Source of the DNA: Melioribacter roseus
GTDB taxonomy: Bacteria > Bacteroidota > Ignavibacteria > Ignavibacteriales > Melioribacteraceae
Direction of reading: 5' to 3'
DNA: 64,000 nucleotides
Assembly: GCA_020724265.1 (NCBI GenBank)
Contig: DYHH01000019.1
Location: 1-64,000, forward strand
Part shown: positions 15,039 through 30,661 of the stretch, in pieces
Layout of the letters: the number at the start of each line of letters is the position of its first letter
Numbering within the stretch: the first letter of the stretch is position 1
The notes under the pieces: generated by a model
Seen by the model: the letters and a program-made list of their open reading frames with translations, nothing else
Told to the model about the DNA's origin: nothing
The model's database searches: none
Translations under genes and position numbers: made by a program

Positions 15039-15068
15039 AAAAAAGTCCGCATGATGCGGACTTTTTTT
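15039..15068. terminator. Bidirectional Rho-independent terminator
   Basis: GTCCGCA at 15045-15051 pairs with TGCGGAC at 15055-15061, flanked by an A-run on the left and eight T on the right. It lies between the convergent response-regulator and 7-heme cytochrome genes and can serve both; the T-run touches the cytochrome stop codon. Confidence 0.85.
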
Positions 15069-16564
15069 TATGGATTTAAACCCGTATGACAATCGGTACA
15101 AAGAAATTCTTTCCATGCATCATCAATATCCGTCGGATGAATAAACTCCAACGATTCATTAATACTTGCAACCTGTAAATTATCTTGCGGACCTTGAGCA
15201 GTAATATAATGACATTGATTACAATCTTTAGAGATAACTTTCCCATCTTCACTCATATGCATATCATTATGGCATCTGAAACATCCGTTAAATTCCAAAT
15301 GACCGATATGATTTGGATATTGATCCCACTTAACTTTCATCTCCGGAAATATATTTCTGTTGTATTCTGTTTGCAATCCATTAATTGCTTGTTCAACTAA
15401 TGATTTGTCAAATTCCGGGTAATTATCTTCATAAAATTCAGTAAGAGTATTTCTTATATATTGATTGGCATCTTCTCTTGTATCAAATTCTTCGGAACAA
15501 ATTTCCATAGAGATAGATTTCAGTTCCGGAAGTTCTTTTGGCATTCTTCCGGCTGTAAGTGCATGATTAACAAAATATGCCGGAGGTTTATAATTATGCG
15601 ATGGTCTGTTATGGCAATCCATGCAGTCCATTTCTCTAATTTCCATATTTGCCATTACTTCAGGTTCGAGTGGATTATCCTGATCTTCATAAATAGTAAC
15701 TTCGCCGGTTTTAAGATTTGTATATCTAACCCAAGGAATTTCTTCTCTTTTTTCGGTAGCAGGAATGTATTCAATTTTTATATCAGGGTTGATGTGCCAG
15801 TGAATTCCTTCCTGCAATCCGAACGCACTATGACTTGCACCAATTCTCATTGTTAAATAAATATCCCATTCCGTGTTTTCTTCATCATTTAAGTAATGTC
15901 GTTCCAATCGAAATTTCTGCGCATAAAATTTTTCGGGCCAATGGCATTGTTCACAAGTTTCTCTAGCCGGACGCAGGTCTGTAATAGGTGTTGGAATTGG
16001 TTTCGGATAAGTATTTGCCAAGACAGCGTAAACCTGTCTTAACCCCGAAAGCTTGGAACGTACATACCAGTCAACTCCCTCACCAACATGGCAGTCGACA
16101 CAGCTTACACGGGCATGCGGTGAGTGTTGGTAGGCAACATATTCTGGTTCCATAACCGCATGACAGACTGTTCCGCAAAACTCAACTGATTCTGTATAAT
16201 GAAATGCTTCGTAACTTCCGATTGCCGACAAAAATAGAAATATAATTGTGCCTACAATAAATATTGTAAATGCGTTGCGGTGTCTTTCATCATTTAAGTC
16301 AATCATCGGTAGACGTTTTTCAGTTTTTCCATGTTTAACTACTTGTCTTTTCTTCCACAACATTCCAATGGGTATTAAGATTAAGCCGGCTACTAAAAAT
16401 GCCGGAAGAATTATATAAATAACTAATCCCAAATAAGAACCGCCTCTATCAAAAACCGTTGAGATGATAAACAGAAAGACAACCATAAAAAGACTAATCA
16501 AGGCAATGGTTGCCCCAATTAGTGAAATCCAATTATAACTTGATTCGGGAAGCTTTAATTTCAT
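15068..16564 (-). CDS. ImcH-like 7-heme inner-membrane NapC/NirT cytochrome
   Basis: A 498-residue protein with three hydrophobic helices in its first 135 residues and then a periplasmic heme region. Heme motifs in order are CGTVCH (CX3CH, NapC style), CVDCH, CEQCH, CMDCH, CFRCH, CNQCH and CTDCH, seven in all. Three helices, a NapC/NirT core with ESVEFCGTVCHAVM...PHARVSCVDCH and seven hemes match the description of Geobacter ImcH, a menaquinol-oxidising cytochrome used with higher-potential extracellular acceptors. The ATG at 16564 with a GAGG site is preferred to a longer frame whose first 25 residues look untranslated. It is transcribed divergently from the 19-heme gene. A nitrite/TMAO-type NirT role is possible, but no reductase is nearby. 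Confidence 0.85.
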   Translation of the reverse strand: MKLKLPESSYNWISLIGATIALISLFMVVFLFIISTVFDRGGSYLGLVIYIILPAFLVAGLILIPIGMLWKKRQVVKHGKTEKRLPMIDLNDERHRNAFTIFIVGTIIFLFLSAIGSYEAFHYTESVEFCGTVCHAVMEPEYVAYQHSPHARVSCVDCHVGEGVDWYVRSKLSGLRQVYAVLANTYPKPIPTPITDLRPARETCEQCHWPEKFYAQKFRLERHYLNDEENTEWDIYLTMRIGASHSAFGLQEGIHWHINPDIKIEYIPATEKREEIPWVRYTNLKTGEVTIYEDQDNPLEPEVMANMEIREMDCMDCHNRPSHNYKPPAYFVNHALTAGRMPKELPELKSISMEICSEEFDTREDANQYIRNTLTEFYEDNYPEFDKSLVEQAINGLQTEYNRNIFPEMKVKWDQYPNHIGHLEFNGCFRCHNDMHMSEDGKVISKDCNQCHYITAQGPQDNLQVASINESLEFIHPTDIDDAWKEFLCTDCHTGLNP

Positions 16565-16780
16565 TACTACCTCACTTATGAAGAAAATAGACAACTTCAA
16601 ATTGTTGTGTAAAATAAACCTTCCTGTTAAAAATAACAACTTGTCGGGAGTGTTAAAAAAAACCTAATACTGCCGCTTTACAACTTGAGGTTTATAAATG
16701 AATTTTGTTTTCTCATTTGACAAAAAGCAACTTTCTCAATAATTTTCTTTTGGATATTATACTCTAATATCCCTTTTAAT

Positions 16781-16930: not shown

Positions 16931-18904
16931 ATGACTAATTGTTCGAAGAATTTATTACTACCAATTTTATTACTACTTCTAACAATTCAAGCTATGGCAC
17001 AAACAGATGAATGTATGATGTGCCACGGTGACAGATCCCTTTCTTATGAGAGAAATAATAAATTAGTTTCATTATTTGTTGACGAAAATAAATTTGCTAA
17101 ATCAGTTCATGCCGATTTAGACTGTTCAGACTGCCATATGGATTTTGATGCTGAAGATATTCCGCATCGTGCCGGGGATAATATTTATAAAGTCGATTGT
17201 GCAACTTGTCATTATGATTATGCTGAAGAGTATCATGAAAGCTTACACGGACAAGCTCTTGCTCAGGGTAAATTTTTAGCTCCGGATTGCACTACTTGTC
17301 ACGGTAAACACGATATTCTTCCTCACACAAATGAAAAATCCAAAACATATGTTATGAATATACCCGACCTTTGCGGTACCTGTCATAAAGAAGGAACTAG
17401 AGTATCAGCATTAAGGACAATCAGCCAGCGTCATATTTTAGAAAACTATAAAGAATCAATTCATGGCGATGGACTTTTCAGAAGAGGTTTAATTGTAACT
17501 GCTGTTTGTACAAGCTGTCATTTTTCGCATAATATTCTGCCACACGAAAATCCAAAATCTTCAATCAATAGAAATAATATTGCATCAACATGTATGCAGT
17601 GCCATACTCAAATTGAAAAAGTTCACACAAAAGTAATTAGAGGTGAACTTTGGGAACAACAGCCCCATGTTATTCCCGCATGTATTGATTGCCACCAGCC
17701 GCATCAAGTTAGACGAGTATTTTATGATCAGAAATATGATGATGCTAAATGCATGTCCTGCCATTCAAACAAAGATTTGTATAAAGAAGTAAACGGTGAG
17801 AAGGTAAGTTTGTATGTTGATACAAATGACTTAGCACATTCCGTTCATAAAGATAATACTTGTATTAAGTGCCATACTAACGTCAGCCATTTTAGCAACC
17901 CAATTTGTAAAGAAAGTGGAAAGGTTGATTGTTCAATCTGTCATGCTTCACAAGTTGAAGAATGGCAACTGAGTCAACATTCTATTGAACTTGTAAACGG
18001 AAATGTTGATGCCCCGTATTGTAATGACTGTCATGGCACTCATAAAGTACAAAAAAAAACCGACCGAACATCTCCTACATTTGCAAGAAATATTCCCGAC
18101 TTATGCGGTAAGTGTCATAACATCGGAGGTCCCGGAAAAAGTATTCTCGAAGATGAATTTGGAATTGTAAAAGATTATTCGCAAAGTATTCACGGTAGTC
18201 TTTTAGAATCCGGTTTAACAGTTACTGCAACTTGTGTCGATTGTCATTCGGCTCATAGAGAATTGCCTGAGAAAAATCCTCTTTCTACAGTACATAAAGA
18301 TAACGTTGGTGAAACATGTGCAAAATGTCACCTTGGTATATATGAACAGTTTACAAACAGTATTCATAGTCCCCTAATAACACAAACAGATAAAGAGCTT
18401 CCGGGTTGTCAAGATTGTCATCAAGCTCATACAATTAAAAGAACCGACAAGGATGATTTTCGTGCCGAGATAATTGATCAATGCGGCAGATGCCATGAAG
18501 ATGTTACCGATACATATTTCGATACACTTCACGGAAAGGTTTCTAAATTAGGTTCGATTGGAGCCGCAAAATGCTACGATTGTCACGGTTCACACAATAT
18601 ATTACCGACTTATATTGTTGGATCAACCCTGCATAGGGAAAATATAGTAGAAACTTGCGCAAGCTGTCATCCGAATTCCAACAGAAAATTTGTCGGTTAT
18701 TTAACTCACGCTACTCACCATGATAAAGATAAATATCCATTTCTGTATTATACTTTCTGGTTTATGACAATATTATTAAGCGTAACATTTTTATTCTTTG
18801 GAACACATACTTTGTTATGGCTTCCACGCGGTTTGGCAGAAAGAAGAAAAGCAAAACTTGAAAAGAAAAACAATTCAACAGGGAATCCGGTTAATGGCAA
18901 ATAG
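16931..18904 (+). CDS. 19-heme c-type cytochrome with C-terminal membrane anchor
   Basis: A 657-residue protein with a signal peptide ending AMAQ (about 24), nineteen CXXCH motifs from CMMCH at 28 to CASCH near 581, and one hydrophobic helix near residues 603-627 followed by a basic tail. It shows an internal duplication: the first two motifs (C28 and C65) and motifs nine and ten (C274 and C311) have the same 37-residue spacing and similar sequence (KLVSLFVDxN / KVSLYVDTN). The same module opens the 16-heme gene at 19.8 kb. It overlaps the following cytochrome b gene by eleven bases. It is likely a periplasmic heme wire held at the inner membrane and reduced through that cytochrome b. Confidence 0.87.
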   Translation: MTNCSKNLLLPILLLLLTIQAMAQTDECMMCHGDRSLSYERNNKLVSLFVDENKFAKSVHADLDCSDCHMDFDAEDIPHRAGDNIYKVDCATCHYDYAEEYHESLHGQALAQGKFLAPDCTTCHGKHDILPHTNEKSKTYVMNIPDLCGTCHKEGTRVSALRTISQRHILENYKESIHGDGLFRRGLIVTAVCTSCHFSHNILPHENPKSSINRNNIASTCMQCHTQIEKVHTKVIRGELWEQQPHVIPACIDCHQPHQVRRVFYDQKYDDAKCMSCHSNKDLYKEVNGEKVSLYVDTNDLAHSVHKDNTCIKCHTNVSHFSNPICKESGKVDCSICHASQVEEWQLSQHSIELVNGNVDAPYCNDCHGTHKVQKKTDRTSPTFARNIPDLCGKCHNIGGPGKSILEDEFGIVKDYSQSIHGSLLESGLTVTATCVDCHSAHRELPEKNPLSTVHKDNVGETCAKCHLGIYEQFTNSIHSPLITQTDKELPGCQDCHQAHTIKRTDKDDFRAEIIDQCGRCHEDVTDTYFDTLHGKVSKLGSIGAAKCYDCHGSHNILPTYIVGSTLHRENIVETCASCHPNSNRKFVGYLTHATHHDKDKYPFLYYTFWFMTILLSVTFLFFGTHTLLWLPRGLAERRKAKLEKKNNSTGNPVNGK

Positions 18905-19769
18905 TGAAAAAAGTAAAATAAAAAATCACGGCAGTAACGAAGAAAAATATATTTGGCGTTTTGAACCATTTTTAAGTTTTCTGCACATACTTGTTATTTT
19001 AAGTTTTCTTTCGCTTGCAATTACAGGCATGACGATTAAGTTTGCCGGTGTAGGAATATTTCAAACTGCATCAAAATTAATGGGAGGATATGAAGTAACA
19101 GGTTATATCCATAGACTCGCCGCAATTATTACTTTTGTATACTTTATCCTTCACATTGGTTACTTAATTAAAAAAGTTACTAAACAGAATAGAACTTTTA
19201 AACATATGCTCTCCGGTGAAAATTCGATGGTTCCGAATAAACGTGATTGGAAAGAATTTATAGGTACTATTAAATGGTTCTTCGGTAAAGGTAAAAGACC
19301 AAATTACGGAAGATGGACTTATTGGGAGAAGTTTGATTATTTTGCTGTTTTTTGGGGCGTGGCAGTTATCGGCTCAAGTGGTTTGATTTTATGGTTCCCG
19401 GAATTTTTTACTTTTCTTGGTTTACCCGGTTGGTTTATTAATGTAGCTTCAATTGTTCATAGCGATGAAGCTTTGCTTGCAACCGGTTTTATTTTCACAA
19501 TACATTTCTTTAATACTCATTTTCGGCCTGATAAATTTCCGATGGATAATGTAATTTTTACTGGCAGAGTTCCTCTTGAAGAATTTAAAAAAGATCGACC
19601 GAGAGAGTACCAAATATTAATTGAAAATAATAAATTGGAGGAACGGATTGCTCCTCCTCCGCCCGAGTGGCTGGTTAAATTTGCTAAATATTTTGGTTTC
19701 ACCGCATTATCAATTGGACTTATAATTGTAATAATGATAATATATGCAATGATTTTCTTATACAAATAA
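18894..19769 (+). CDS. Membrane cytochrome b (b561/HydC-like) partner of the 19-heme cytochrome
   Basis: A 291-residue integral membrane protein with about five hydrophobic helices. Candidate b-heme histidines lie in FLHILVI, GYIHRLAAI, ILHIGYL, IVHSDEALLA and TIHFFNTHF. It is clearly homologous to the C-terminal half of the 19.8 kb gene (shared ITGxxxK, IHRxAA, ILWFP and FRPxxxPM blocks). The ATG at 18894 overlaps the end of the 19-heme gene; a longer frame in another start would add 32 unrelated residues. The probable role is menaquinol oxidation with delivery of electrons to the 19-heme protein. Confidence 0.82.
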   Translation: MANSEKSKIKNHGSNEEKYIWRFEPFLSFLHILVILSFLSLAITGMTIKFAGVGIFQTASKLMGGYEVTGYIHRLAAIITFVYFILHIGYLIKKVTKQNRTFKHMLSGENSMVPNKRDWKEFIGTIKWFFGKGKRPNYGRWTYWEKFDYFAVFWGVAVIGSSGLILWFPEFFTFLGLPGWFINVASIVHSDEALLATGFIFTIHFFNTHFRPDKFPMDNVIFTGRVPLEEFKKDRPREYQILIENNKLEERIAPPPPEWLVKFAKYFGFTALSIGLIIVIMIIYAMIFLYK

Positions 19770-19780
19770 ATGGGAAACTA

Positions 19781-22222
19781 ATGAACTTTTTCAAACTCCT
19801 TTTTTTGATTTTGGCAATTACTATTTCAATCTTCGCACAAGATGACTGTTTAATCTGTCACGAAGACCAAAGTTTATCTTATGAACGCTACGGAAAAAAA
19901 GTCTCGCTCTTTGTAAGTGGAGAAAGATTCTCTAATTCCGTACACGGTGGATTTGATTGCAATGATTGCCATACCGGTTTTGTTGCAGATGACTTACCTC
20001 ATAAAGAAGGAGTTGATATTTACAAAGTTGATTGTGCCGATTGCCATGAAGAAATTTATTCCATTGTTCAGAACGATGTTCATCATAGATTGAAAGAAAG
20101 AGTTAAAAATCCTCCAGAATGTGTTAACTGCCATGGTTACCATTATGTAAAACCACCGGAAATGAGTCCGAACAAAGCTCGTGAGTATTGTTCAAGCTGC
20201 CATGAAACAAAACTTTTAATGCGTCCATTCCATTCAGTGCAAGATGTTTCTAAAAATCCTTGTGCTGATTGCCATGACACCGATGACTTTCTTCCGCAGC
20301 TCTTAAAGTCTGTACATCAGGATTTGATATGCAGTGACTGCCACTCGGCAATCGGCAGTAAGTTAGATAACCATCCCGCTAATTTGGAAAAAGTAGAAAT
20401 TGCAAGCTGTTATGTTTGTCATAAAGAACAGGCTGATGAACATAAAGAAAGTATTCATGGAATATCTTTAGGCGAAGGAATATTGGAAGCCGCAACTTGC
20501 TGGGATTGTCATGGCTCTCATGATATTTTACCGATTGAAAATCACGACAGCAAAGTATCAAACGGAAATTTAGGTCATACATGTGGAGTTTGCCACGATG
20601 ATCCTAAGTTTGCAGAAAAATTTAATTTAATAAGCGTTAGGTCCGGTTTAAGATTTGAGGATTCTTTCCATTACACTTTAATGGCTCAAGGCAAGGAAAT
20701 GGATATGAATTGTTCTACTTGTCATGGTGTCCACGATATTAAAAACAGAATTCAACCCGGATCAACTATATCGGCATATAACTTAAACGAAACTTGCGAA
20801 CAATGTCATTCCGATGTTGTTCATGAATATAAAAATTCCATTCATTGGATTGGTGCAAAAAAAGGTTTACGTGTTGCCCCTGTTTGTAGTGATTGTCATA
20901 GCGAACACAGTCCTAGAGCAAAAGAGCTTGCCGAAGGGACATTTTCCGTTAAACAGTTTCAAGAAGAAGTTTGTATTTCATGTCATCAAGATCCAATTCT
21001 TACTGCTCGTTTAGGATTATCTCAAGATGAAGCTTACAGTTATCAGGATAGTTATCATGGTTTGGCTGTAAAACGAAATGATCCGAGAGCAGCATACTGC
21101 ATAGATTGTCATAATGTTCATGAAATTCTGCCTCAAAGCCATCCGCAATCTTCAGTTAGCAAAGAAAATGTCTTGGCAACCTGCCAGAAATGTCACCCTA
21201 AGGCAACACAAGTATTTGCAGAAAGTTATTCGCATATTACCCAAAATGAACAGGCTCGAAAAGTAGAAGGTTTGGTAACAACAATCTATTTCTGGCTGAT
21301 TGTTGTTATTATCGGAGGTATGATTTTACATAACGTTCTCATCTATGTTCATGAAGTAAGAAGAAGAAAGCAAAACGAACGAAAGGAAATTGTCATTCCA
21401 AGATTTACCAAAAATGAAATTATTCAACACATAATTCTATTCACCTCATTCTTCACTCTTGCAATTACAGGTTTTGCATTAAAATATCCTTTCAGCTGGT
21501 GGGCAGATGGTTTATATCAGCTTGGTATGACCGAGGTAGTTCGTCAAAATATTCACAGGATAGCTGCCGTAGTTATGATAGCTTTAAGTGTTTACCACGT
21601 AATTTATTTAATAGTTACAAAACGCGGCAGAGATATTCTTTCTCACATGGTACCAAGATTTGATGATGTAAAAGAAGCATTTCAAAATATACTTTATTAT
21701 TTACGCCTAAGAAAACATCCTCCTGAATTCAGCAAGTTCGATTATACCGAAAAGGCTGAGTACTGGGCTTTGGTTTGGGGAACAATAGTAATGGGAGTTA
21801 CAGGATTTATTCTCTGGTTCCCTACAATGGTTGGAGATTGGGCTCCGATCTGGTTGATAAAAGTTAGCGAAACAATTCACTTTTATGAAGCCATTCTCGC
21901 TACTCTTGCAATTATTGTATGGCATTGGTTCTTTGTAATTTTCAGACCAAGCGAATACCCAATGAGTTTCGTTTGGATTGACGGGAAAATGAGTCTGCAT
22001 AAATATCGTCATCATCACGAAAGACATTTCAAGAAGATTATTCTTGAATGGATGCAGGTCAAAGAAGGTCAAAAGAAACTTAATGAAGTCAGTCATTCAA
22101 CAAAGTTATTTTTAGATACTATAAAAACTCACGGTTCGGAACCTGACGAAATTATGTCAGCCGAAATGGAAAATGATCCCGATTTAAGAAGTTGGGTTAT
22201 CGAAAACTTAAAAGGACTCTAA
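19781..22222 (+). CDS. 16-heme cytochrome c fused to a membrane cytochrome b (CbcL-like architecture)
   Basis: An 813-residue protein. The signal peptide ends SIFAQ at residue 20. Sixteen CXXCH motifs lie between CLICH at 23-27 and CQKCH near 469. A hydrophobic helix at about 500-525 and four further helices at about 560-720 form a cytochrome b domain with histidines in NIHRIAAV, SVYHVIYL, TIHFYEAI and VWHWFFV. A cytosolic helical tail of about 80 residues ends the protein. The N-terminal module repeats that of the upstream 19-heme gene (two hemes 37 residues apart). Multiheme c plus b in one chain is the plan of Geobacter CbcL, used for low-potential extracellular acceptors, though CbcL has fewer hemes. 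Confidence 0.87.
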   Translation: MNFFKLLFLILAITISIFAQDDCLICHEDQSLSYERYGKKVSLFVSGERFSNSVHGGFDCNDCHTGFVADDLPHKEGVDIYKVDCADCHEEIYSIVQNDVHHRLKERVKNPPECVNCHGYHYVKPPEMSPNKAREYCSSCHETKLLMRPFHSVQDVSKNPCADCHDTDDFLPQLLKSVHQDLICSDCHSAIGSKLDNHPANLEKVEIASCYVCHKEQADEHKESIHGISLGEGILEAATCWDCHGSHDILPIENHDSKVSNGNLGHTCGVCHDDPKFAEKFNLISVRSGLRFEDSFHYTLMAQGKEMDMNCSTCHGVHDIKNRIQPGSTISAYNLNETCEQCHSDVVHEYKNSIHWIGAKKGLRVAPVCSDCHSEHSPRAKELAEGTFSVKQFQEEVCISCHQDPILTARLGLSQDEAYSYQDSYHGLAVKRNDPRAAYCIDCHNVHEILPQSHPQSSVSKENVLATCQKCHPKATQVFAESYSHITQNEQARKVEGLVTTIYFWLIVVIIGGMILHNVLIYVHEVRRRKQNERKEIVIPRFTKNEIIQHIILFTSFFTLAITGFALKYPFSWWADGLYQLGMTEVVRQNIHRIAAVVMIALSVYHVIYLIVTKRGRDILSHMVPRFDDVKEAFQNILYYLRLRKHPPEFSKFDYTEKAEYWALVWGTIVMGVTGFILWFPTMVGDWAPIWLIKVSETIHFYEAILATLAIIVWHWFFVIFRPSEYPMSFVWIDGKMSLHKYRHHHERHFKKIILEWMQVKEGQKKLNEVSHSTKLFLDTIKTHGSEPDEIMSAEMENDPDLRSWVIENLKGL

Positions 22223-22326: not shown

Positions 22327-22869
22327 ATGAAGAAGCTCTCATTATTGTTGATTTCGTTTCTTTTTATTGCTCTTGCTGTGAATGCACAAGAGTTTAATTA
22401 CATTGGTGTAAAAAAATGTTCCATGTGTCATAAGACTGAAAAACAAGGCTCACAATTATCTATTTGGGAAAAATCGAAGCATGCCAATGCATACAAAGTA
22501 CTACAATCTGCTGAAGCTGATAAGATTGCTGCTGATTTAGGCCATACAACAAAAGCTGCTGAAACAGAGGCTTGCTTAAAATGCCATGCAACTGGTTATA
22601 ATGTGCCTGAAGCCAGATTGGAAAAAGGTTTTAATATTGCCGATGGTGTTCAGTGCGAAACTTGCCACGGTGCCGGAAAAGATTACAGCCCGATGAAAGT
22701 TATGAAAGATAAACAAGCATCTATTGACGCCGGTTTAATTGTTTGGGCTGATGAAGCTGCTATCGAAGCTCAGTGTCGTACCTGTCACAATGAAGAAAGC
22801 CCGACATATAAAGAATTCAATTTTGCCGAAAGTTATAAATTGATTGAACACAATATTCCAAAAGAATAA
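22327..22869 (+). CDS. Tetraheme cytochrome c-554-like protein
   Basis: A 180-residue exported cytochrome. The signal peptide ends AVNAQ near residue 21 from the ATG at 22327, which has an AGGAGG site eight bases upstream (a GTG nine bases earlier is less likely because the site would overlap it). Four heme motifs are CSMCH, CLKCH, CETCH and CRTCH; SIWEKSKHANAY and the spacing resemble the cytochrome c-554 family. It is probably a soluble periplasmic shuttle between the inner-membrane cytochromes and the outer-membrane conduit whose genes follow directly. The strong ribosome-binding site suggests abundant expression. Confidence 0.85.
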   Translation: MKKLSLLLISFLFIALAVNAQEFNYIGVKKCSMCHKTEKQGSQLSIWEKSKHANAYKVLQSAEADKIAADLGHTTKAAETEACLKCHATGYNVPEARLEKGFNIADGVQCETCHGAGKDYSPMKVMKDKQASIDAGLIVWADEAAIEAQCRTCHNEESPTYKEFNFAESYKLIEHNIPKE

Positions 22870-22886
22870 ATCAACATAGGTTGAAA

Positions 22887-24152
22887 ATGAAAAAGATTCT
22901 AATTGCAGCCATTCTAATTTCTACTTCGGTTTTGATGGCTCAAAATTTAAACGGAAGATTCTCAACTTCTCTTTATACCTTTGAGAGATATTCTGCTCCT
23001 AATGTTTCCGAAACTTACGTCCGTTCACTTAGCTCCTTGTACTTTAACTTAAACAAAGATAACATTTCATTAAGAACAAGGTTAAACTTTGAAACCGATA
23101 TCGCAAATGCTTTAGAAAATGATCCGCGTTTACGGTTCTATAATCTTTACCTTGAAGCCCGAAAAGTATTTGATATAGCAACAGTTAGAATCGGTAGACA
23201 ATCTTTGTTTAACAGTGTAGCCGGTGGTCTTTATGACGGCGTTAATCTTCAATTAAGACACGGTATTTTCAAAGTTGAAGGATTTTACGGGGGTAATGTT
23301 CCGGCATACCAAAAAATGGAATTAACAGATGATTGGTCAAACGATTATGTTTTAGGTGGTGAACTTACTGCTTATCCCACTGAAGAATTAAGAGTAGCGG
23401 TTAACTACACAAACAAAAATTTCAAAGCTCAAGATTACGATGCAATCCGGTTAAATGAATTTAACATTTTAGATACGATACTGATAAAAAGAGCTTCCAA
23501 TCAATTTGAGTTTTTAGGTGCAGACCTATCTTATAATCTTCCGAAAATTATTGAAGCCCATGCACGGTATAATTATGATCTGAATTTCTCGCAGACTTCC
23601 AAGTTTGAGATATCAACAAGATATTCTCAGATAGAAGATTTCGGAATTTCAATTTATTATAATTACCGCGAACCGAAGATTAGGTATAATTCGATTTTCT
23701 CGGTGTTTAATTATGCCAACACTCAGGAAATTGAAGGAGGAATTGATTATAAGTTCAGCAACATTATTACTGCTTACGGTAAATTCGGTAATGTTACTTA
23801 TGATGACGAGAATTCACAAAGGTTAACTCTCGGTGTTAACACAACCTATGGTTCGGCAAGTTACAGAAAAACATTCGGTTATGCCGGTGAACTTGATGCA
23901 ATTTCTGTTTATACCGCACGCTCATTTGTAGATGGATTTGTTACCCCTCAAATAGGTTTAACTTATACTAGCTACAAACTCTCGGCAGATTCCGAAACTA
24001 ATTCACTACTTGCAGTTTTGGGAGGAGTTAATCTACGCCCATGGAGAAGTCTTTCTTTCGATCTTCAAGGTCAATTTGTAAACAACAAAATTTATGATAA
24101 CGATTTTAGAATTCTGTTTAAAATCAATCATTGGTTTAACACTAACTTTTAG
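22887..24152 (+). CDS. Outer-membrane beta-barrel, candidate porin of a porin-cytochrome conduit
   Basis: A 421-residue exported protein with a signal peptide ending LMAQ near residue 19. The mature protein is a run of alternating strand-like segments rich in Tyr, Phe and Asn (such as ARYNYDLNF and GISIYYNYR), consistent with roughly twenty strands, and ends with Phe (WFNTNF), the usual barrel terminus. It contains no CXXCH. It lies between a tetraheme cytochrome and a 14-heme cytochrome, followed by an 11-motif lipoprotein. That is the plan of porin-cytochrome conduits, although I do not recognise it as a homologue of OmbB or MtrB. The ATG at 22887 is chosen over the TTG two codons earlier. 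Confidence 0.7.
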   Translation: MKKILIAAILISTSVLMAQNLNGRFSTSLYTFERYSAPNVSETYVRSLSSLYFNLNKDNISLRTRLNFETDIANALENDPRLRFYNLYLEARKVFDIATVRIGRQSLFNSVAGGLYDGVNLQLRHGIFKVEGFYGGNVPAYQKMELTDDWSNDYVLGGELTAYPTEELRVAVNYTNKNFKAQDYDAIRLNEFNILDTILIKRASNQFEFLGADLSYNLPKIIEAHARYNYDLNFSQTSKFEISTRYSQIEDFGISIYYNYREPKIRYNSIFSVFNYANTQEIEGGIDYKFSNIITAYGKFGNVTYDDENSQRLTLGVNTTYGSASYRKTFGYAGELDAISVYTARSFVDGFVTPQIGLTYTSYKLSADSETNSLLAVLGGVNLRPWRSLSFDLQGQFVNNKIYDNDFRILFKINHWFNTNF

Positions 24153-24159
24153 ACTAATT

Positions 24160-25365
24160 ATGAAAAAATTATATGCTTACTTAGTTGTCTTTCTTTCAGT
24201 TGCAATTTTTCTTTTTGCCGTTGCATTTACTACAAATGAAAACCCGGAAGAAAGAACGAACAAAGACATTATCATATTTTCACATTCACTGCATGCAGAA
24301 TTAAGTGATTGTGAATCATGCCATACAGGCGTTGCCGAGAGTTTATCTTTAAGCGATAGACTGCTTCCGGAAAAAGATGCATGTGCAATGTGTCATGATG
24401 TCGAAGATATGGATGCCTGCGGTACTTGTCATTATGAAGATGTTTATGAACCGATGATTCAGAAAAAATCTAAATTATTATTCTCGCACAAGTTTCATAT
24501 CGATGAAGAAAATTTAGAATGTATCGAATGTCATAAAGGATTTGAAGAAATTGATTACAGTTTCGAATCAACACAAGCAAATCCGCCTATGATGCAGTGC
24601 TATTCATGTCATAATGATAATGCCGTTGCAACAAACGCTTGCGAAGCATGCCATGTATCTACGGTTGATTTACTTCCCGACAATCACAAAACTGCATCGT
24701 TTTTTAAGAATCACAAATTCACTGCAATGGCAGCAAATGCCGATTGTGCTATGTGTCATGACAATGTCTTTTGTGAAGATTGTCATGTTTCCACAAATGT
24801 TATTACGGAAACCAATTTAGCCGACAATTTTTATACGCCGTATTCTCCTCATACTTACATTGATAATGAGAAGAAACAAACCATCAACCGTGTACATGAT
24901 TTGAATTACCGTTTCTTGCACGGAATTGATGCAAAAGGCAAAACAATGGAATGCCAAACATGTCATCAAACAGAAACATTTTGTGCAGCATGCCATGCCT
25001 CAAACAATGAAGATTTTGCATCATCGGGAATCTTGCCGGCTTCTCACTTAGCACCCAACTTTGTTATGATTGGCGTTGGTTCAGGTGGCGGCGAACATTC
25101 CCGTCTTGCAAGACGAGATATTGAAAGATGCGCTTCATGTCACGATGTTCAGGGCGCAGATGCGAATTGTATTATGTGTCACGTAGACCCCGACGGTATT
25201 AAAGGGACTAATCCAAAAACTCATACAATCAATTTTATGAGCAGTACTAACGGTGATTGGCATAACGATGCCGGTTCGGTTTGTTATAATTGCCATACCG
25301 ATGCAAATGCTTATCCCGGAGGAAATCCGAATTTCGGTTTCTGCGGTTACTGTCATAGTAAATAA
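24160..25365 (+). CDS. 14-heme c-type cytochrome, candidate conduit subunit
   Basis: A 401-residue cytochrome whose ATG at 24160 comes eight bases after the barrel gene stop. A longer frame overlapping the barrel gene would add 22 residues and is rejected because the ATG opens a normal signal/anchor (KKLYAYLVVFLSVAIFLFAV). Fourteen CXXCH motifs are present, CESCH first and CGYCH four residues from the end. The lead segment lacks a clear cleavage site, so it may stay as an N-terminal anchor. With the barrel and the lipoprotein it forms the most plausible heme wire through the outer membrane. Confidence 0.83.
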   Translation: MKKLYAYLVVFLSVAIFLFAVAFTTNENPEERTNKDIIIFSHSLHAELSDCESCHTGVAESLSLSDRLLPEKDACAMCHDVEDMDACGTCHYEDVYEPMIQKKSKLLFSHKFHIDEENLECIECHKGFEEIDYSFESTQANPPMMQCYSCHNDNAVATNACEACHVSTVDLLPDNHKTASFFKNHKFTAMAANADCAMCHDNVFCEDCHVSTNVITETNLADNFYTPYSPHTYIDNEKKQTINRVHDLNYRFLHGIDAKGKTMECQTCHQTETFCAACHASNNEDFASSGILPASHLAPNFVMIGVGSGGGEHSRLARRDIERCASCHDVQGADANCIMCHVDPDGIKGTNPKTHTINFMSSTNGDWHNDAGSVCYNCHTDANAYPGGNPNFGFCGYCHSK

Positions 25366-25386
25366 GATTAATTCAACAGGTAAACA

Positions 25387-26583
25387 ATGAAATACATTAT
25401 TTCGTATTCAAGTTTATTACTTCTTGCAGCACTTCTATTTTGGGGATGTGCTGAAGTAAGAGACGATATAACAGCACCGCAAGAAGTAAAAGTTCACGGC
25501 AACGATGCGTTAAATGCTAATTCCGATAAGTTCCACTCTTTCCTTGTGAAAGACGAGGGAATTTATAATTGTCAAACATGTCATGCTGCCGATTATTCGG
25601 GCGGTATTACCGAACTAAGCTGTGTAACTTGTCATCCCACCGTGCAGGTCCACCAGGAAGGGATTAATAATCCAAGTAAAGAAAATTTCCACGGAAAATT
25701 TATTGCTGACAATAATCAATTTTTCGAATGTAAACAATGCCATGGTAACAATTGGAGCGGCGGTGTTGTTACCCCGGGTTGCGTAACTTGTCACGGCGGA
25801 ATCGATGTACACAGATCAGGAATTTTTAATCCAACTAATCCAAATTTTCACGGTCAATTCATTAGAGAAACTAATTGGAATTTAGCACTTTGCAGTCAAT
25901 GTCACGCGGCAGATTACGCCGGAGGTTTGATAAGCCCTACTTGCTTAACTTGCCATGATGATACCGGGGGACCTGAAGCTTGCAATACTTGTCATGGTAA
26001 TTTCTCAGATCCGACTCAAATCGCACCACCCCAAGGTACAAACAATGAAACAAGTACAACTGCTGCTGCTGTCGGTGCACACCAATTACACTTACATGGT
26101 ATTGCAATTGCTCAAAACGTTGCTTGTAATGAGTGTCATATTATTCCATCAGAATTCCAGTCCGCAGGACATATTGACGGAACTCCGAGAGCTGAGTTGA
26201 CTTTTGGTGCATTCACGAACTTGGGCCCCACACAAGCTTATTATGATTTTGATGAATTAACTTGCCAGAACACATACTGCCACGGTAATTTCGAGTTCTT
26301 AGCTTCCGAATCTCAATATCCATTTGCATACACCGGTGAAAAGATGGAAGGTAATAACTTTAGCCCGATATGGAATAAAGTTGACGGGACACAAGCAGCT
26401 TGTGGAACATGTCATGGTGAAATCAATGAAAGCGGTCAACTTATCTCTGCACTTCCCAAAGGTCATTACGGCGATTTCAGTATAACAACATGTGTTACTT
26501 GCCATCGTAGTGTTGTAAATGAAAACGGTGAGATTATTGATCCTACAAAACACATTAACGGTATAATTGATGTGTTTGATTAA
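25387..26583 (+). CDS. Multiheme outer-membrane lipoprotein (10 CXXCH + 1 CX4CH)
   Basis: A 398-residue lipoprotein with lipobox LFWGC, lipidated Cys near residue 21. Ten CXXCH motifs are present, and one longer CQNTYCH near residue 297 recalls the CxxxxCH/CXXCH paired proteins of Geobacter. The N-terminal half has three similar modules, each with CxxCHxxxYxGG or CHGxNWSGG, a second CxTCH, then VHxxGxxNP and FHGxFI, which points to tandem duplication. It is the last gene before a strong terminator. A surface-exposed terminal reductase of the conduit is the likely role; side of the membrane cannot be read from sequence. Confidence 0.83.
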   Translation: MKYIISYSSLLLLAALLFWGCAEVRDDITAPQEVKVHGNDALNANSDKFHSFLVKDEGIYNCQTCHAADYSGGITELSCVTCHPTVQVHQEGINNPSKENFHGKFIADNNQFFECKQCHGNNWSGGVVTPGCVTCHGGIDVHRSGIFNPTNPNFHGQFIRETNWNLALCSQCHAADYAGGLISPTCLTCHDDTGGPEACNTCHGNFSDPTQIAPPQGTNNETSTTAAAVGAHQLHLHGIAIAQNVACNECHIIPSEFQSAGHIDGTPRAELTFGAFTNLGPTQAYYDFDELTCQNTYCHGNFEFLASESQYPFAYTGEKMEGNNFSPIWNKVDGTQAACGTCHGEINESGQLISALPKGHYGDFSITTCVTCHRSVVNENGEIIDPTKHINGIIDVFD

Positions 26584-26604: not shown

Positions 26605-26629
26605 AAGCCGCCTAGTGCGGCTTTTTTTT
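26605..26629 (+). terminator. Rho-independent terminator after the cytochrome run
   Basis: AAGCCGC at 26605-26611, a five-base loop and GCGGCTT at 26617-26623 followed by a T-run. It closes the 16.9-26.6 kb cytochrome genes and separates them from the sigma-54 activator. Confidence 0.88.
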
Positions 26630-26688: not shown

Positions 26689-28011
26689 ATGACAATAAGT
26701 GATAAATTAAAAGATCATATTCTAGAGTCAATTGGTGAAGGTGTTTTCACTGTTGATAAAGATTTTCGTATAAATTTTTTTAATCATGCTGCCGAAGAAA
26801 TAACCGGTTTTAAAAAAGACGAAGTATTAGGTAATTTTTGCAAACATATCTTTAAATCAAAATTATGTTATACCGAATGCCCCATTGCTTTAGTTATAAA
26901 ATCCAATAAAAATATTTATGACTTTGAATCATCAATCACAAAAAGTTCCGAAGAAATAATACCAATAAAACTTAATGCTGCTGTTCTCTATAATGACAAC
27001 CGGGAACCGAGGGGCGGAATTGTTACATTCCGGGATATATCTGAGATGGAGAAAATTAGAAAAGATTTGGAAAAAGAGACTCACTTTAACGGTATTGTAG
27101 GTGTTAGCAAACATATGCAGGAAATTTTCTCATTAATTAAAGAGATAACCGATTCAGTGGCACCGGTTTTAATTTCCGGCGAATCCGGCACCGGTAAAGA
27201 ACTGATTGCAAATGCAATACAAAAAACCAGCATGAGAAGAGATAAACCTTTCATTAAAATTAATTGTGCGGTTCTTCCTCCTCAGTTGTTAGGGAGCGAA
27301 CTTTTCGGTCATGTTAAAGGTGCTTTTACCGATGCCGTTAAAGACAGAATAGGAAGATTTGAACTTGCCGATGGAGGCACAGTATTTTTAGATGAAGTGG
27401 CAGAAATGCCTCAGCAAACCCAAATCCAACTTCTACGGGTTTTACAGGAAGGAACTTTTGAAAGAGTAGGTGAATCAGAAACAAGAACCACCAACGTTAG
27501 AGTAGTTGCCGCAACAAATATTAATATTGAGAAGGCATTAAATGAAGGAAAGTTTAGAGAAGATCTCTTTTACAGACTAAATGTTATACCGATTACGGTT
27601 AAACCCCTGCGCGAAAGACTTGATGATATTATTCCTCTTATTCACCATTTTATTCATAAATTCAATTTAATTTATAAAAAAGAAATCGAGGATATTTCCG
27701 ATGAAACATTGGAACTACTTCACTCTTATAATTGGCCCGGAAATATTAGAGAATTGGAGAACGTGCTTGAATTTGCTTACGTTAGAACAAAGAAAAATAA
27801 CAATATCACAGCTCAACAACTTCCCCCTGTAATAAAATCTAAATCGGTTAAAAATGTTGATGTAGAAGAAAACATCTCCGTTAGCTCCGGCACCTCTTAT
27901 TTAATTAAAGTATTAGATAAAAACAAGTGGAATAAATCTGCAGCCGCAAAAGAATTAGGTATCGGAAGAACAACACTTTGGCGAAAATTAAAAGAAATTG
28001 GATTAGAATGA
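26689..28011 (+). CDS. PAS-domain sigma-54-dependent transcriptional activator (NtrC family)
   Basis: A 440-residue enhancer-binding protein. Residues 5-115 are a PAS domain with a Cys cluster (FCKHIFKSKLCYTECP at about 49-64). Residues about 135-365 are the AAA+ domain with Walker A GESGTGKE, a sigma-54 contact loop GAFTDA in place of GAFTGA, Walker B GTVFLDE, and NWPGNIRELENV near the end. Residues 395-440 are a Fis-type HTH (NKSAAAKELGIGRTTLWRKL). It has no receiver domain, so the signal probably enters through PAS. Sigma-54-like promoters at 16881, 28169 and 32169 and GTTTC/GAAAC palindromes make it the likely regulator of the cytochrome and heme genes. Confidence 0.9.
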   Translation: MTISDKLKDHILESIGEGVFTVDKDFRINFFNHAAEEITGFKKDEVLGNFCKHIFKSKLCYTECPIALVIKSNKNIYDFESSITKSSEEIIPIKLNAAVLYNDNREPRGGIVTFRDISEMEKIRKDLEKETHFNGIVGVSKHMQEIFSLIKEITDSVAPVLISGESGTGKELIANAIQKTSMRRDKPFIKINCAVLPPQLLGSELFGHVKGAFTDAVKDRIGRFELADGGTVFLDEVAEMPQQTQIQLLRVLQEGTFERVGESETRTTNVRVVAATNINIEKALNEGKFREDLFYRLNVIPITVKPLRERLDDIIPLIHHFIHKFNLIYKKEIEDISDETLELLHSYNWPGNIRELENVLEFAYVRTKKNNNITAQQLPPVIKSKSVKNVDVEENISVSSGTSYLIKVLDKNKWNKSAAAKELGIGRTTLWRKLKEIGLE

Positions 28012-28018
28012 TCTGTTT

Positions 28019-28044
28019 CAATTTGTTTCACCGGAAACAAATTG
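28019..28044 (+). promoter_or_regulatory. Perfect palindrome, candidate activator binding site
   Basis: CAATTTGTTTC at 28019-28029, a four-base centre, then the exact complement GAAACAAATTG at 28034-28044. A further TGTTTC half site flanks it on each side. It sits about 125 bases upstream of the sigma-54-like promoter at 28169, a normal enhancer distance, and just after the activator gene. Confidence 0.6.
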
Positions 28045-28168
28045 TTTCGTATACTGTAATTGTATCTATAACAATAAGTTAGACTCCTTTAAATAGTATT
28101 ACCCTTCTTTGCTGGAACATCTTGTTTCAAAACCTAAACAAAAATTTCTTTTTTAGCTCAAAATCAAC

Positions 28169-28184
28169 TGGCATAAGCTTTGTC
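28169..28184 (+). promoter_or_regulatory. Sigma-54-like promoter before the 28.2 kb cytochrome
   Basis: TGGCATA, four bases, TTGTC: the -24 GG is kept and the spacing is exact, with GT instead of GC at -12. About 50 bases before the ATG at 28233. Confidence 0.5.
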
Positions 28185-28232
28185 GATATTAACATCTAAT
28201 TATGTAATTAAATCTCATACAGGGAAATTGAT

Positions 28233-29627
28233 ATGAAAAAAATATTTCTTTTGATTTTTACGATCACCCTAATTGTGTTGTTCAGCATTGCATGTTCCGA
28301 AGACAAAGATGAAAAAATTGTTAATCCCAATGGAACTGATGAGTCAGTTGCATCGTGTGAAGGTTGCCATACAAATTACGAGCACTTAAAAGCTGTACAT
28401 ACACCTGATCCCCCAAGCAGCGGTGGAGGCGGATGCGGAGGGGCTATCCCCCATATCCAACCTTATGATAGGGTTTTTCTCGGAGGTAATGGTTTTGTTG
28501 CTTTTAAATATGGTACACATGGGAAACTGAGCTGTGTTTCATGTCATAATGGCGTTGATGATACAGCGGACAAGCAATTAGCGCATTCTCAAGATTTCAT
28601 AGCTAAACCATCTCATGATCCAGAAAGTAAATGTGGTACTTGCCATGCCGAAATTGTTGCAAGGACTAAAAATAGTCTGCACCAACAAGGTTGGGGCCAA
28701 AAAAGTATGGTTGTCTTAAGATCCGGATTGGATAACGTGCCGGACGGATTCGACCAACTAAGTGAAGTGATGAAAGAAGGTTATAATAGCAACTGTGCAA
28801 CATGCCACGCATCATGCGGTGATTGTCATGTAAATCGTCCTGCTGCAGGTGGTGGCGGATTATATAATGGGCATAATTTTTTGAAGAAACCCAACATGCG
28901 TGATCATTGCACAACCTGTCATTCTAGCCGAGGAGCCCACGCATATTTTGGAATTGCTGTTGGAACAGTTCCCGATGTTCACTTAACAAAATTTGGTTTT
29001 GACTGTATGCATTGTCATAACAAAGATGAAATTCACGGTGACGGGAATATTTATGACCAACGATATAAAATGCCGTTAAAACCTGAATGCACTGATTGTC
29101 ATGCACATGTTGCACAATCAAATAAATTTCACACTTTTCACATGGATACTTTTAGTTGTAACGTTTGCCATTCTCAAAATTATAATAATTGCGGAAGTTG
29201 TCACGTTGGCGGTGACGGTGCAAGAATCCCTTCTCACCAAAAGTTTAAAATTGGCATGAATCCGCTTCATGATATTAAACCTACATTTAAATATGCATTA
29301 CTGCGTGAATCTCCGATGGCTCCTGATAGCTGGTCGAATTATGGAACTCCAAGTCTAAATAATTTTGATGTTAGACCAACATACAAATATGCAACACCTC
29401 ATAACATTGTTAAAATTACATCAAGAACAGGTTATAAAGATGCTACCAGTGGACAGTGGGTAACTTTCACAAATTGTGCCGAGGGGTGCCATATCAGTAA
29501 AAATAATGACGGAACCTATAATAATAAAGAAATTTACCTTTTTGATGAAGACCTATTAGATTGGGAAAAGGAAGCTAACAGAAATGTAATTGTTGATGAT
29601 CGATTACCATCTTCATGGGGTCTGTAA
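28233..29627 (+). CDS. Multiheme lipoprotein cytochrome (10 CXXCH + 1 CX3CH)
   Basis: A 464-residue lipoprotein with lipobox LFSIAC (Cys near 21). Heme motifs run from CEGCH to CGSCH (ten CXXCH), plus a CAEGCH (CX3CH) near residue 416. A glycine-rich insert with two extra cysteines (SSGGGGCGG) lies near residue 62 and another GGGG stretch near 206. The last 130 residues have only the CX3CH motif and may form a distinct domain. It has its own sigma-54-like promoter and a palindromic upstream site, and is followed 44 bases later by a rhodanese lipoprotein. I do not recognise a named family; by lipidation and position it is probably an outer-membrane or surface cytochrome. Confidence 0.83.
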   Translation: MKKIFLLIFTITLIVLFSIACSEDKDEKIVNPNGTDESVASCEGCHTNYEHLKAVHTPDPPSSGGGGCGGAIPHIQPYDRVFLGGNGFVAFKYGTHGKLSCVSCHNGVDDTADKQLAHSQDFIAKPSHDPESKCGTCHAEIVARTKNSLHQQGWGQKSMVVLRSGLDNVPDGFDQLSEVMKEGYNSNCATCHASCGDCHVNRPAAGGGGLYNGHNFLKKPNMRDHCTTCHSSRGAHAYFGIAVGTVPDVHLTKFGFDCMHCHNKDEIHGDGNIYDQRYKMPLKPECTDCHAHVAQSNKFHTFHMDTFSCNVCHSQNYNNCGSCHVGGDGARIPSHQKFKIGMNPLHDIKPTFKYALLRESPMAPDSWSNYGTPSLNNFDVRPTYKYATPHNIVKITSRTGYKDATSGQWVTFTNCAEGCHISKNNDGTYNNKEIYLFDEDLLDWEKEANRNVIVDDRLPSSWGL

Positions 29628-29671
29628 TTAATTGAATTACACTAATAAACAAAAACAAGGAGTTAACTAAA

Positions 29672-30661
29672 ATGAAATTAAAAAATCTATTGTACTTATT
29701 ATTGATAACATCGTTTTTATTTTTCCAAACTGGATGTTCGAAAGACGACACTAACCCTGCTGCACCTGTCGATCCTATTAATGAATCACAAGTATTAGCT
29801 GAGTATCTTGAAGCAAGTGGAGATTTTATAAATAATGCAGCGCCCGCTATGATATCAGCTTCTGATGTTTATGCCGATTTATTATTAGGTGCAAACATTG
29901 CTGTTCTTGATGTCCGATCTAAAACTGACTATGATGCCGGACATATTGCTGGTGCTGTACATGTTCCCATTAGTGATTTAATAAACTATTACAAGAACAA
30001 TAATTTGGCATCTAAAACAAAAGTTGTATTAGCCTGTTACTCCGGTCAAAGCGCTGGCTGGGCAACCGCTTTACTTAGATTAATCGGTTATAGCAATGTC
30101 TTTGACTTGAAATATGGTATGTCAAGCTGGAACCCTGCTACAAGCGGTCCTTGGGTAAATAATATTGGCAACGCAAGAGCAGGTGATTTTGTAACTACAC
30201 CAACTTCAAAAAATGCAATTGGAAATATGCCTACTCTGTCTACAGGTAAAACTACCGGGCCGGAAATCTTAGAAGCAAGAGTTGCTGCAGTTTTAGCCGA
30301 AGGTTTTAGTTTGGCTGCAATAGACAATGGAACTTTATATACAAACTTATCTAACTATTACATTGTGAACTATTGGCCAATTGATCAGTACAATTGGGGA
30401 CATATTTCAGGATCAGTTCAATATACTCCCAAACAAGACCTCAAGCTCAGTACCGCATTGAAAACATTACCAACCAATAAACCGGTTGTGATTTATTGCT
30501 ACACGGGTCAAACTTCTGCACATGTTGCTGCATATTTAAGACTTCTTGGTTATGATGCTAAATCATTGCTCTATGGAGTTAACGCTATGAGTTATGATGC
30601 AATGCCTGGAACAAAATTCAATGCTGCTACAGATGTACACGATTATCCTTTAGTACCTTAA
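29672..30661 (+). CDS. Lipoprotein with two rhodanese domains
   Basis: A 329-residue lipoprotein with lipobox FFQTGC (Cys near 22). Two rhodanese-like domains follow: the first at about 62-160 with LDVRSKTDYDAGHI and active loop CYSGQSA, the second at about 215-320 with GHISGS and CYTGQTS. Both keep the catalytic Cys, so both could carry sulfane sulfur. An AGGAG site precedes the start. A rhodanese lipoprotein beside multiheme surface cytochromes recalls ExtH in the Geobacter extHIJKL cluster. It ends before a strong terminator, so it likely shares the transcript of the upstream multiheme lipoprotein. Confidence 0.87.
   Translation: MKLKNLLYLLLITSFLFFQTGCSKDDTNPAAPVDPINESQVLAEYLEASGDFINNAAPAMISASDVYADLLLGANIAVLDVRSKTDYDAGHIAGAVHVPISDLINYYKNNNLASKTKVVLACYSGQSAGWATALLRLIGYSNVFDLKYGMSSWNPATSGPWVNNIGNARAGDFVTTPTSKNAIGNMPTLSTGKTTGPEILEARVAAVLAEGFSLAAIDNGTLYTNLSNYYIVNYWPIDQYNWGHISGSVQYTPKQDLKLSTALKTLPTNKPVVIYCYTGQTSAHVAAYLRLLGYDAKSLLYGVNAMSYDAMPGTKFNAATDVHDYPLVP

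Follow-up and report, generated by a model that had tools for sequence, protein, structure and literature searches.

A four-gene set of Melioribacter roseus that probably encodes an Ignavibacteria-type porin-cytochrome conduit

Introduction

Porin-cytochrome (Pcc) conduits, as described in PMC4245776, consist of a porin gene (18 to 22 strands) beside the gene of a periplasmic multiheme c-type cytochrome (c-Cyt; 5 to 14 hemes), mostly together with an outer multiheme c-Cyt. The same paper of 2014 describes a set of four genes with consecutive tags in Ignavibacterium album, encoding an associated periplasmic c-Cyt (IALB_1840), a porin (IALB_1839), a periplasmic c-Cyt of 400 residues and 14 motifs, the largest identified up to then (IALB_1838), and an outer c-Cyt with atypical motifs (IALB_1837). 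The cluster was found by BLAST with Geobacter templates, and IALB_1839 and IALB_1838 were placed outside the five Pcc groups (PMC4245776). Here we analyze a comparable gene set of Melioribacter roseus (class Ignavibacteria), located at positions 22327 to 26583 of a window of 64,000 nucleotides; the window is the whole stretch of DNA analyzed (assembly GCA_020724265.1, contig DYHH01000019.1, positions 1 to 64,000 of the forward strand). The set very probably is an Ignavibacteria-type Pcc conduit that would export electrons.

Published Pcc clusters come from I. album and M. roseus and from Ignavibacteria of bioanodes (PMC4245776, PMC6137239, PMC7399161). M. roseus and I. album are named in PMC6137239 as carriers of Geobacter-like pcc porins, and PMC7399161 reports Ignavibacteria porins found with hidden Markov models (HMMs) built on known porins, in clusters called OmbB-like. 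These clusters come from the same class as the window, and the cited descriptions are without residue-level detail, so the sameness of each cluster is uncertain. In a Bacteroidetes bin, six cytochromes and a barrel form an uncharacterized cluster whose hits lie in Bacteroidetes or Ignavibacteriae (PMC8258643); the multiheme-cluster survey PMC11475568, in the parts consulted, names no Ignavibacteria cluster. A full-text search of open-licence PubMed Central for the tags IALB_1837, IALB_1838, and IALB_1839 returns PMC4245776 alone. The first-pass annotation of this DNA had proposed a possible new conduit, a claim that does not survive the comparison with I. album: the set exemplifies a device that was already known. 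New here are a class-wide test of the genes as a unit, a barrel prediction, an unusual CX4CH motif in all lipoproteins compared, and a count of 12 conserved distal His residues for 14 hemes.

Results and discussion

The gene set has the anatomy of a Pcc conduit

A barrel gene, the gene of a 14-heme cytochrome, and the gene of a multiheme lipoprotein follow one another on the forward strand (Table 1). Gene content and order, the barrel model, and the lipobox all agree with the conduit anatomy of the first-pass annotation; the range that it assigned to this triplet opens with a fourth gene, for a c554-type tetraheme cytochrome, which its description left out. Seven bases, not eight, lie between the barrel and 14-heme genes, with the ATG starting at the eighth. 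The proposed common end of the genes at one terminator is borne out by a terminator-like hairpin with a T-run past the lipoprotein gene. The overall count of terminator-like sites is weak as evidence (6 versus 3.4 expected; standard deviation, 2.1), and we accept this one because it stands at the gene end and has a T-run. A scan of the window against Rfam gave no match at gathering scores, and a search of the genome for PF22678 gave none either. The c554-type protein scores 71.9 bits against PF13435 and matches cytochrome c554 in the Protein Data Bank (PDB; 1bvb, E 6.9e-7); its gene is the positional counterpart of IALB_1840.

The roles of IALB_1840 to IALB_1837 fit the order in the window, namely a c-Cyt, a porin, a 14-heme c-Cyt of about 400 residues, and an outer c-Cyt with atypical motifs. 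Compared by described properties, the window set stands apart in sequence distance and in the larger number of hemes (10 + 1) of its lipoprotein. Orthology to the I. album cluster is probable by description, given the gene order, the sizes, the number of hemes, and the relatives that bear a name. Three loci titled Ignavibacterium sp. (L131, L132, and L134) have the same four genes, with 14-heme proteins of 397 to 400 residues; identity to the window is 51 to 59% for the c554-type, barrel, and 14-heme proteins and 37 to 39% for the lipoprotein.

The window also has the features by which Pcc clusters are recognized: its porin gene adjoins a periplasmic multiheme gene, the 14 hemes fall within 5 to 14, and there is an outer multiheme c-Cyt (lipobox, 11 motifs). 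Geobacter OmbB-OmaB-OmcB shares this logic of barrel, periplasmic multiheme, and outer multiheme cytochrome, but its periplasmic subunit has 8 hemes versus 14 here and its outer cytochrome has 12 hemes versus 11 motifs here (PMC4245776). The functional logic is likewise shared with Shewanella MtrCAB, whose decaheme MtrA/DmsE-type cytochrome has no equal in the window: the protein here has 14 hemes and scores 16.8 bits against a cutoff of 192.2 for TIGR03508, the DmsE-family decaheme model to which we take MtrA to belong. MtrB has 26 strands; the window barrel is modeled with 22 to 24. MtrB_PioB (PF11854) found no match in the barrel (E 0.1), in 78 aligned barrel sequences (0.01), or in the genome, the genome search being one in which the control panel yielded a single match, below the cutoff. 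In PMC4245776, 28 strands are predicted for MtrB.

The genes are conserved as a unit across Ignavibacteria

We surveyed 294 sampled genomes of the class, accepting the barrel at E <= 0.001 and the 14-heme profile at E <= 1e-30. The barrel is present in 185 of these genomes and the 14-heme protein in 181. When the two tables are compared by eye, the 14-heme protein occurs in 181 of the 185 barrel-positive genomes and in none of the 109 barrel-negative ones; the barrel stands without a 14-heme match in G025, G060, G094, and G126. Copy number is mostly one. Two or three matches, some of which may be fragments, were found for the barrel in G140, G155, G162, G201, and G235 and for the 14-heme protein in G155, G185, and G203. 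Across the phylum, 58 of 395 genomes match the 14-heme profile at 1e-30, and outside the class only G396 does so, with a partial match of 152 bits. No 14-heme relative was found at 1e-5 in a plasmid collection.

Gene order was followed in two sets of loci. The first comprises 78 wide loci from barrel-positive genomes, picked for contig room and spread, irrespective of synteny, and without any of the four barrel-only genomes. The second was found via the 14-heme alignment (343 stretches matched, 279 relatives), of which the best 80 of 279 were kept; 11 of these 80 duplicate a first-set sequence, as judged by identical last 150 residues. A 14-heme homolog directly follows the barrel at all 78 first-set loci and at all 79 second-set loci (of 80) where a barrel was detected. 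A third multiheme gene follows the pair at 77 of the 78 (exception, L055) and at 76 of the 79; of the three second-set exceptions, two are contig ends and one, L188, has its lipoprotein region split into two short open reading frames. A c554 gene lies directly upstream of the barrel at 50/78 first-set and 68/79 second-set loci. Conservation of the triplet in relatives, on which the first-pass annotation had made its proposal depend, is thus evident from both co-occurrence and adjacency. Paired barrel and 14-heme genes in 181 of 294 genomes suggest that the I. album Pcc design is no oddity of a single genome, and they offer a candidate marker by which extracellular respiration could be recognized in a lineage that has been little studied.

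Among the best 80 of 279, the nearest relative by 14-heme protein is "Ignavibacteria bacterium SpSt-1166" (97%), followed by SURF_28 (80%); further relatives include records titled Melioribacteraceae, Melioribacter, Stygiobacter electus, and Ignavibacterium sp. By these relatives, the window probably belongs to Ignavibacteriales, either within Melioribacteraceae or close to that family. At the 64 loci with all four genes labeled, pairwise distances of the barrel correlate with those of the 14-heme protein at 0.88, the lipoprotein at 0.80, and the c554-type protein at 0.67, values that we do not take as proof of contact because they reflect shared phylogeny.

Some loci vary the arrangement. L096, from genome G155, carries the whole set of c554, barrel, 14-heme, and lipoprotein genes as two tandem copies, and in L072 and L080 an extra multiheme gene (402 residues, 5 CX2CH and 1 atypical motif) separates the middle cytochrome from the lipoprotein.

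The barrel is modeled with about 22 strands and no plug

An AlphaFold2 (AF2) model of the barrel, made with 70 sequences, has a mean predicted local distance difference test score (pLDDT) of 84.3 and a predicted template modeling score of 0.73. It contains 24 strand elements and no plug domain. We read 22 of the elements as wall and two (residues 184 to 189 and 195 to 201) as a loop hairpin, as they are short and lie in a stretch of lower pLDDT; pLDDT is below 50 at residues 266 to 277. The first-pass estimate of about twenty strands is therefore right as to the barrel, and its number becomes 22, or at most 24. With 22 strands, the barrel would fall inside the Pcc range of 18 to 22, in which the Geobacter conduits are counted.

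No Pfam or NCBIfam cutoff is reached by the sequence of the window barrel (best, LptD, 18.9 bits versus 22.4). Across 78 aligned barrels, matches are weak and scattered (LptD in 10, Porin_4 in 8, and OMP_b-brl in 7), and the barrel profile matches no PDB sequence at E 1. These weak and scattered matches would suit a conduit lineage of independent origin, convergent with OmbB and MtrB, as would the exclusion of IALB_1839 and IALB_1838 from the five Pcc groups (PMC4245776). Ignavibacteria porins are, however, retrieved by HMMs of known porins (PMC7399161), and the I. album cluster is retrieved by BLAST with Geobacter templates (PMC4245776). We hold an independent origin to be a tentative possibility, which differs from an Ignavibacteria-type Pcc conduit in descent and not in function, so that the two overlap in probability. 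A fuller proposal makes the conduit a separate invention, unrelated to OmbB and MtrB and inherited, mostly in one copy, by the larger part of the class. It would join a plug-less barrel of about 22 strands, a c7-type 14-heme wire of mixed His/His and non-His ligation running through it, and a lipoprotein cap in which a CX4CH heme site is the single constant feature. This proposal seems unlikely.

Structural comparison with Foldseek ranks the FimD usher, the porin OmpM1, Occ channels, and AlgE at the top, all at TM-scores of <= 0.50. A second aligner places TonB-dependent receptor barrels first (PirA at Z 20.2 over 342 residues and 4.6 Å, and in addition BtuB and FhuA); the ushers PapC and FimD reach Z 18.2. 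MtrB is absent among the structural matches listed, which does not exclude a likeness to MtrB. TonB-dependent receptors enclose a plug domain with their 22 strands and ushers are built of 24, so a barrel of this size can hold a protein domain. The gene set raises the structural question of how a 14-heme wire would fit into about 22 strands.

The 14-heme cytochrome partly resembles c7-type cytochromes

The second protein of the triplet carries 14 hemes, as annotated: its 14 CXXCH motifs compare with a mean of 0.12 and a maximum of 2 in 2000 residue shuffles. Searched against the PDB, the 14-heme profile matches first the c7-type dodecaheme 3ov0 (E 7.5e-30, two segments), which we take to be GSU1996. 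Profile positions 33 to 173, the N-terminal half of the protein, align to two stretches of 3ov0, whereas the C-terminal half is uncovered. The next matches are 8k9e, 6lod, and 6f0k, presumably alternative complex III subunits, and 6btm, listed as alternative complex III. A weak match (0.0011) is 6r2q_A, which we assume to be MtrA of the Shewanella Mtr complex; the listing names the chain otherwise.

GSU1996 is not known as a conduit part. The role of a capacitor in the periplasm has been ascribed to this cytochrome (PMC10138318), and the likeness of the N-terminal half to it could be read as a sign that the cytochromes form a periplasmic module, for electron storage or as a soluble-acceptor reductase, that leaves the outer membrane uncrossed beside an ordinary export or uptake porin. 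The structural resemblance of the barrel to generic receptors, ushers, and porins points the same way. The strict class-wide pairing of barrel and 14-heme protein, a barrel model that is free of a plug domain, and a lipoprotein cytochrome encoded by the third gene all speak against such an arrangement, which we consider highly improbable.

All 14 motif His residues are invariant in 70 aligned sequences, that of the window included. Only 12 other His residues are invariant in this alignment (42, 45, 110, 113, 176, 185, 246, 254, 296, 313, 355, and 368), leaving two hemes without a conserved distal His. In an alignment of 75 sequences, 63 keep free His355 and His368 together with motif His379 and His399, and the remaining 12 lack all four; this joint loss is as expected if two bis-His hemes were lost together in the short lineages. 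Met144 is invariant in both alignments and, judged from this conservation, is a candidate heme ligand. GSU1996 has one His-Met heme in each triheme domain (PMC10138318). The two hemes without a conserved distal His pose a further structural question, that of their ligands.

At the 78 first-set loci, the middle protein has 14 hemes in 64, 13 in 1, 12 in 9, and 11 in 4. Lineages with a middle cytochrome of 11 or 12 hemes include L057 to L060, L065, L067, L069, L072, and L075.

The third gene encodes a multiheme lipoprotein with a CX4CH motif

The third protein had been annotated as a lipoprotein with 11 motifs; it has 10 CX2CH motifs and one CX4CH motif, and it has the lipobox LLFWGC. It scores 43.6 bits against TIGR01904 (cutoff, 27) and finds no PDB match at 0.01. 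At 158 loci, 153 homologs were labeled, 142 of them distinct in sequence. A lipobox-like site is present in 153/153 lipoproteins and, by the same rule, in 6/158 14-heme and 1/134 c554-type proteins. The rule had been widened, also for the two control proteins, after a stricter pattern missed 24/153; among 20 misses inspected, most show a plain lipobox barred by the over-strict rule, and the start of L089 is odd. The CX4CH motif occurs in 153/153 lipoproteins, 0/158 14-heme proteins, and 0/134 c554-type proteins. The number of CX2CH motifs per lipoprotein ranges from 4 to 28, with 6 the commonest (71/153), and over the 64 loci the lipoprotein varies most in length (standard deviation 88, compared with 20 in the 14-heme protein and 19 in the barrel).

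Past the Cys, the lipoproteins conform roughly to the consensus C-S-[DE]-[LIV]-[KQ]-[DEN]-[DEN]. Its acidic residues resemble the surface lipoprotein export signals of Bacteroidetes, such as SDDDD, SDDFE, and QKDDE (PMC5080379), and on this basis an outward exposure of the lipoprotein is plausible.

An enlarged lipoprotein is found in L034 (4978 to 7602, reverse strand), where a protein of 874 residues carries 28 CX2CH motifs and one CX4CH motif beside a barrel and a 14-heme protein of unchanged size; the lipoprotein of L135 has an identical tail.

Electrons would flow from quinol to an extracellular acceptor

In the proposed mechanism, quinol would be oxidized by the neighboring CbcL-like and/or ImcH-like membrane cytochromes (Table 1), and periplasmic cytochromes, the c554-type tetraheme protein among them, would relay the electrons to the 14-heme cytochrome. 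The latter would sit partly inside the barrel, itself a fairly confident model, and hand electrons to the multiheme cytochrome, whose lipid anchor is predicted from the lipobox and which we place at the cell surface by inference. There it may pass electrons to an acceptor outside the cell, which is probably either Fe(III) oxide or of a humic or electrode-like type.

The same kind of conduit could also work inward, from an extracellular donor (Fe(II) or a partner cell) to the quinone pool. CbcL/MtrH/MtoC-type proteins occur in Fe(III) reducers and Fe(II) oxidizers alike, with no feature that tells direction (PMC6295460). We infer the outward direction from cultured M. roseus, which belongs to the type genus of the family closest to the window and for which Fe(III) can serve as electron acceptor (PMC3534657); in addition, an ImcH-like protein is encoded nearby, and ImcH homologs are reported only from Fe(III) reducers (PMC6295460). 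An inward flow is accordingly improbable.

The Pcc conduit is favored by its gene content and order with the terminator-like end, the conservation of its genes as a unit, the barrel model and its matches to receptor barrels, the c7-type matches of the wire, the lipobox, CX4CH motif, and export-signal-like acidic residues of the lipoprotein, the quinol-oxidase-like neighbors, and the published Ignavibacteria Pcc clusters. Several observations weigh against it. By a simple rough formula, the lumen area of 22 strands is about 0.65 of that of 26 strands; insertion of the whole 14-heme protein is therefore doubtful, and we assume a partial one. For the 14-heme protein, AF2 gives a poor model (mean pLDDT, 59.7), too weak for a fold search. 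Among relatives with 6 kb on each side, fewer than half have quinol-oxidase genes beside the conduit. Promoter-like sites are at chance level (16 versus 16.6 expected), and no promoter is claimed. In the Capnocytophaga export signal, an acidic pair at +4/+5 is optimal and its position mattered (PMC5080379); the acidic/Asn pair of the lipoprotein lies at +6/+7, two places past this optimum, and is a loose match. Finally, PMC4245776 lists I. album as a species that does not reduce solid Fe(III)/Mn(IV) oxides, so the acceptor may differ.

Neighboring genes

Two candidate quinol oxidases, ImcH-like and CbcL-like, both lie upstream and within 8 kb of the conduit, with which they would form a compact inner-to-outer electron route. 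The ImcH-like protein has three N-terminal hydrophobic segments by hydropathy; the ImcH and CbcL features used for comparison are those given in PMC6295460. The 19-heme cytochrome is likely the partner of the b561-type subunit encoded next to it. Where loci extend at least 6 kb on each side, a CbcL-like gene is near the conduit in 27/71 first-set and 17/36 second-set loci.

TABLE 1 Features of the gene set and its surroundings in the window
Feature	Position	Strand	Basis
Tetraheme c554-type periplasmic cytochrome, first gene of the set	22327..22869	+	180 residues, 4 CXXCH
Outer-membrane beta-barrel	22887..24152	+	421 residues; AF2 model
14-heme cytochrome, putatively periplasmic / barrel-inserted	24160..25365	+	401 residues, 14 CXXCH, N-terminal signal-like helix
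Multiheme outer-membrane lipoprotein (predicted)	25387..26583	+	398 residues, 10 CX2CH + 1 CX4CH
Intrinsic terminator-like hairpin + T-run, closing the set	26605..26629	+	Consensus match
ImcH-like NapC/NirT-type cytochrome	15068..16567	-	PF03264 51.6 bits; 6 CX2CH + 1 CX3CH (CGTVCH)
19-heme cytochrome	16931..18904	+	19 CXXCH, one C-terminal hydrophobic segment
Cytochrome b561-type membrane subunit	18894..19769	+	PF01292 49.8 bits
CbcL-like inner-membrane protein, candidate quinol oxidase	19781..22222	+	16 CXXCH + b561-type domain; PF01292, PF14522, PF14537; hydropathy
Second multiheme lipoprotein, accessory	28233..29627	+	10 CX2CH + 1 CX3CH
Rhodanese lipoprotein	29672-30661		PF00581; two rhodanese stretches

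Downstream of the conduit, from 26689, lies the gene of a PAS/sigma-54 type regulator, judged by sequence. In several relatives, too, the conduit is followed by this regulator, the second multiheme lipoprotein, and the rhodanese lipoprotein (26689 to 30661 in the window); at L059 and L060, the regulator is missing, and the second lipoprotein and the rhodanese come directly after the conduit. The two genes are found together near the conduit in 8/71 and 7/36 of the loci that have 6 kb or more on both flanks, and their placement behind it suggests a working link. Geobacter ExtH is likewise a rhodanese lipoprotein encoded in an outer-membrane conduit operon. The mature rhodanese lipoprotein of the window starts C-S-K-D-D, the Capnocytophaga surface-export optimum C-X-K-(D/E)2.

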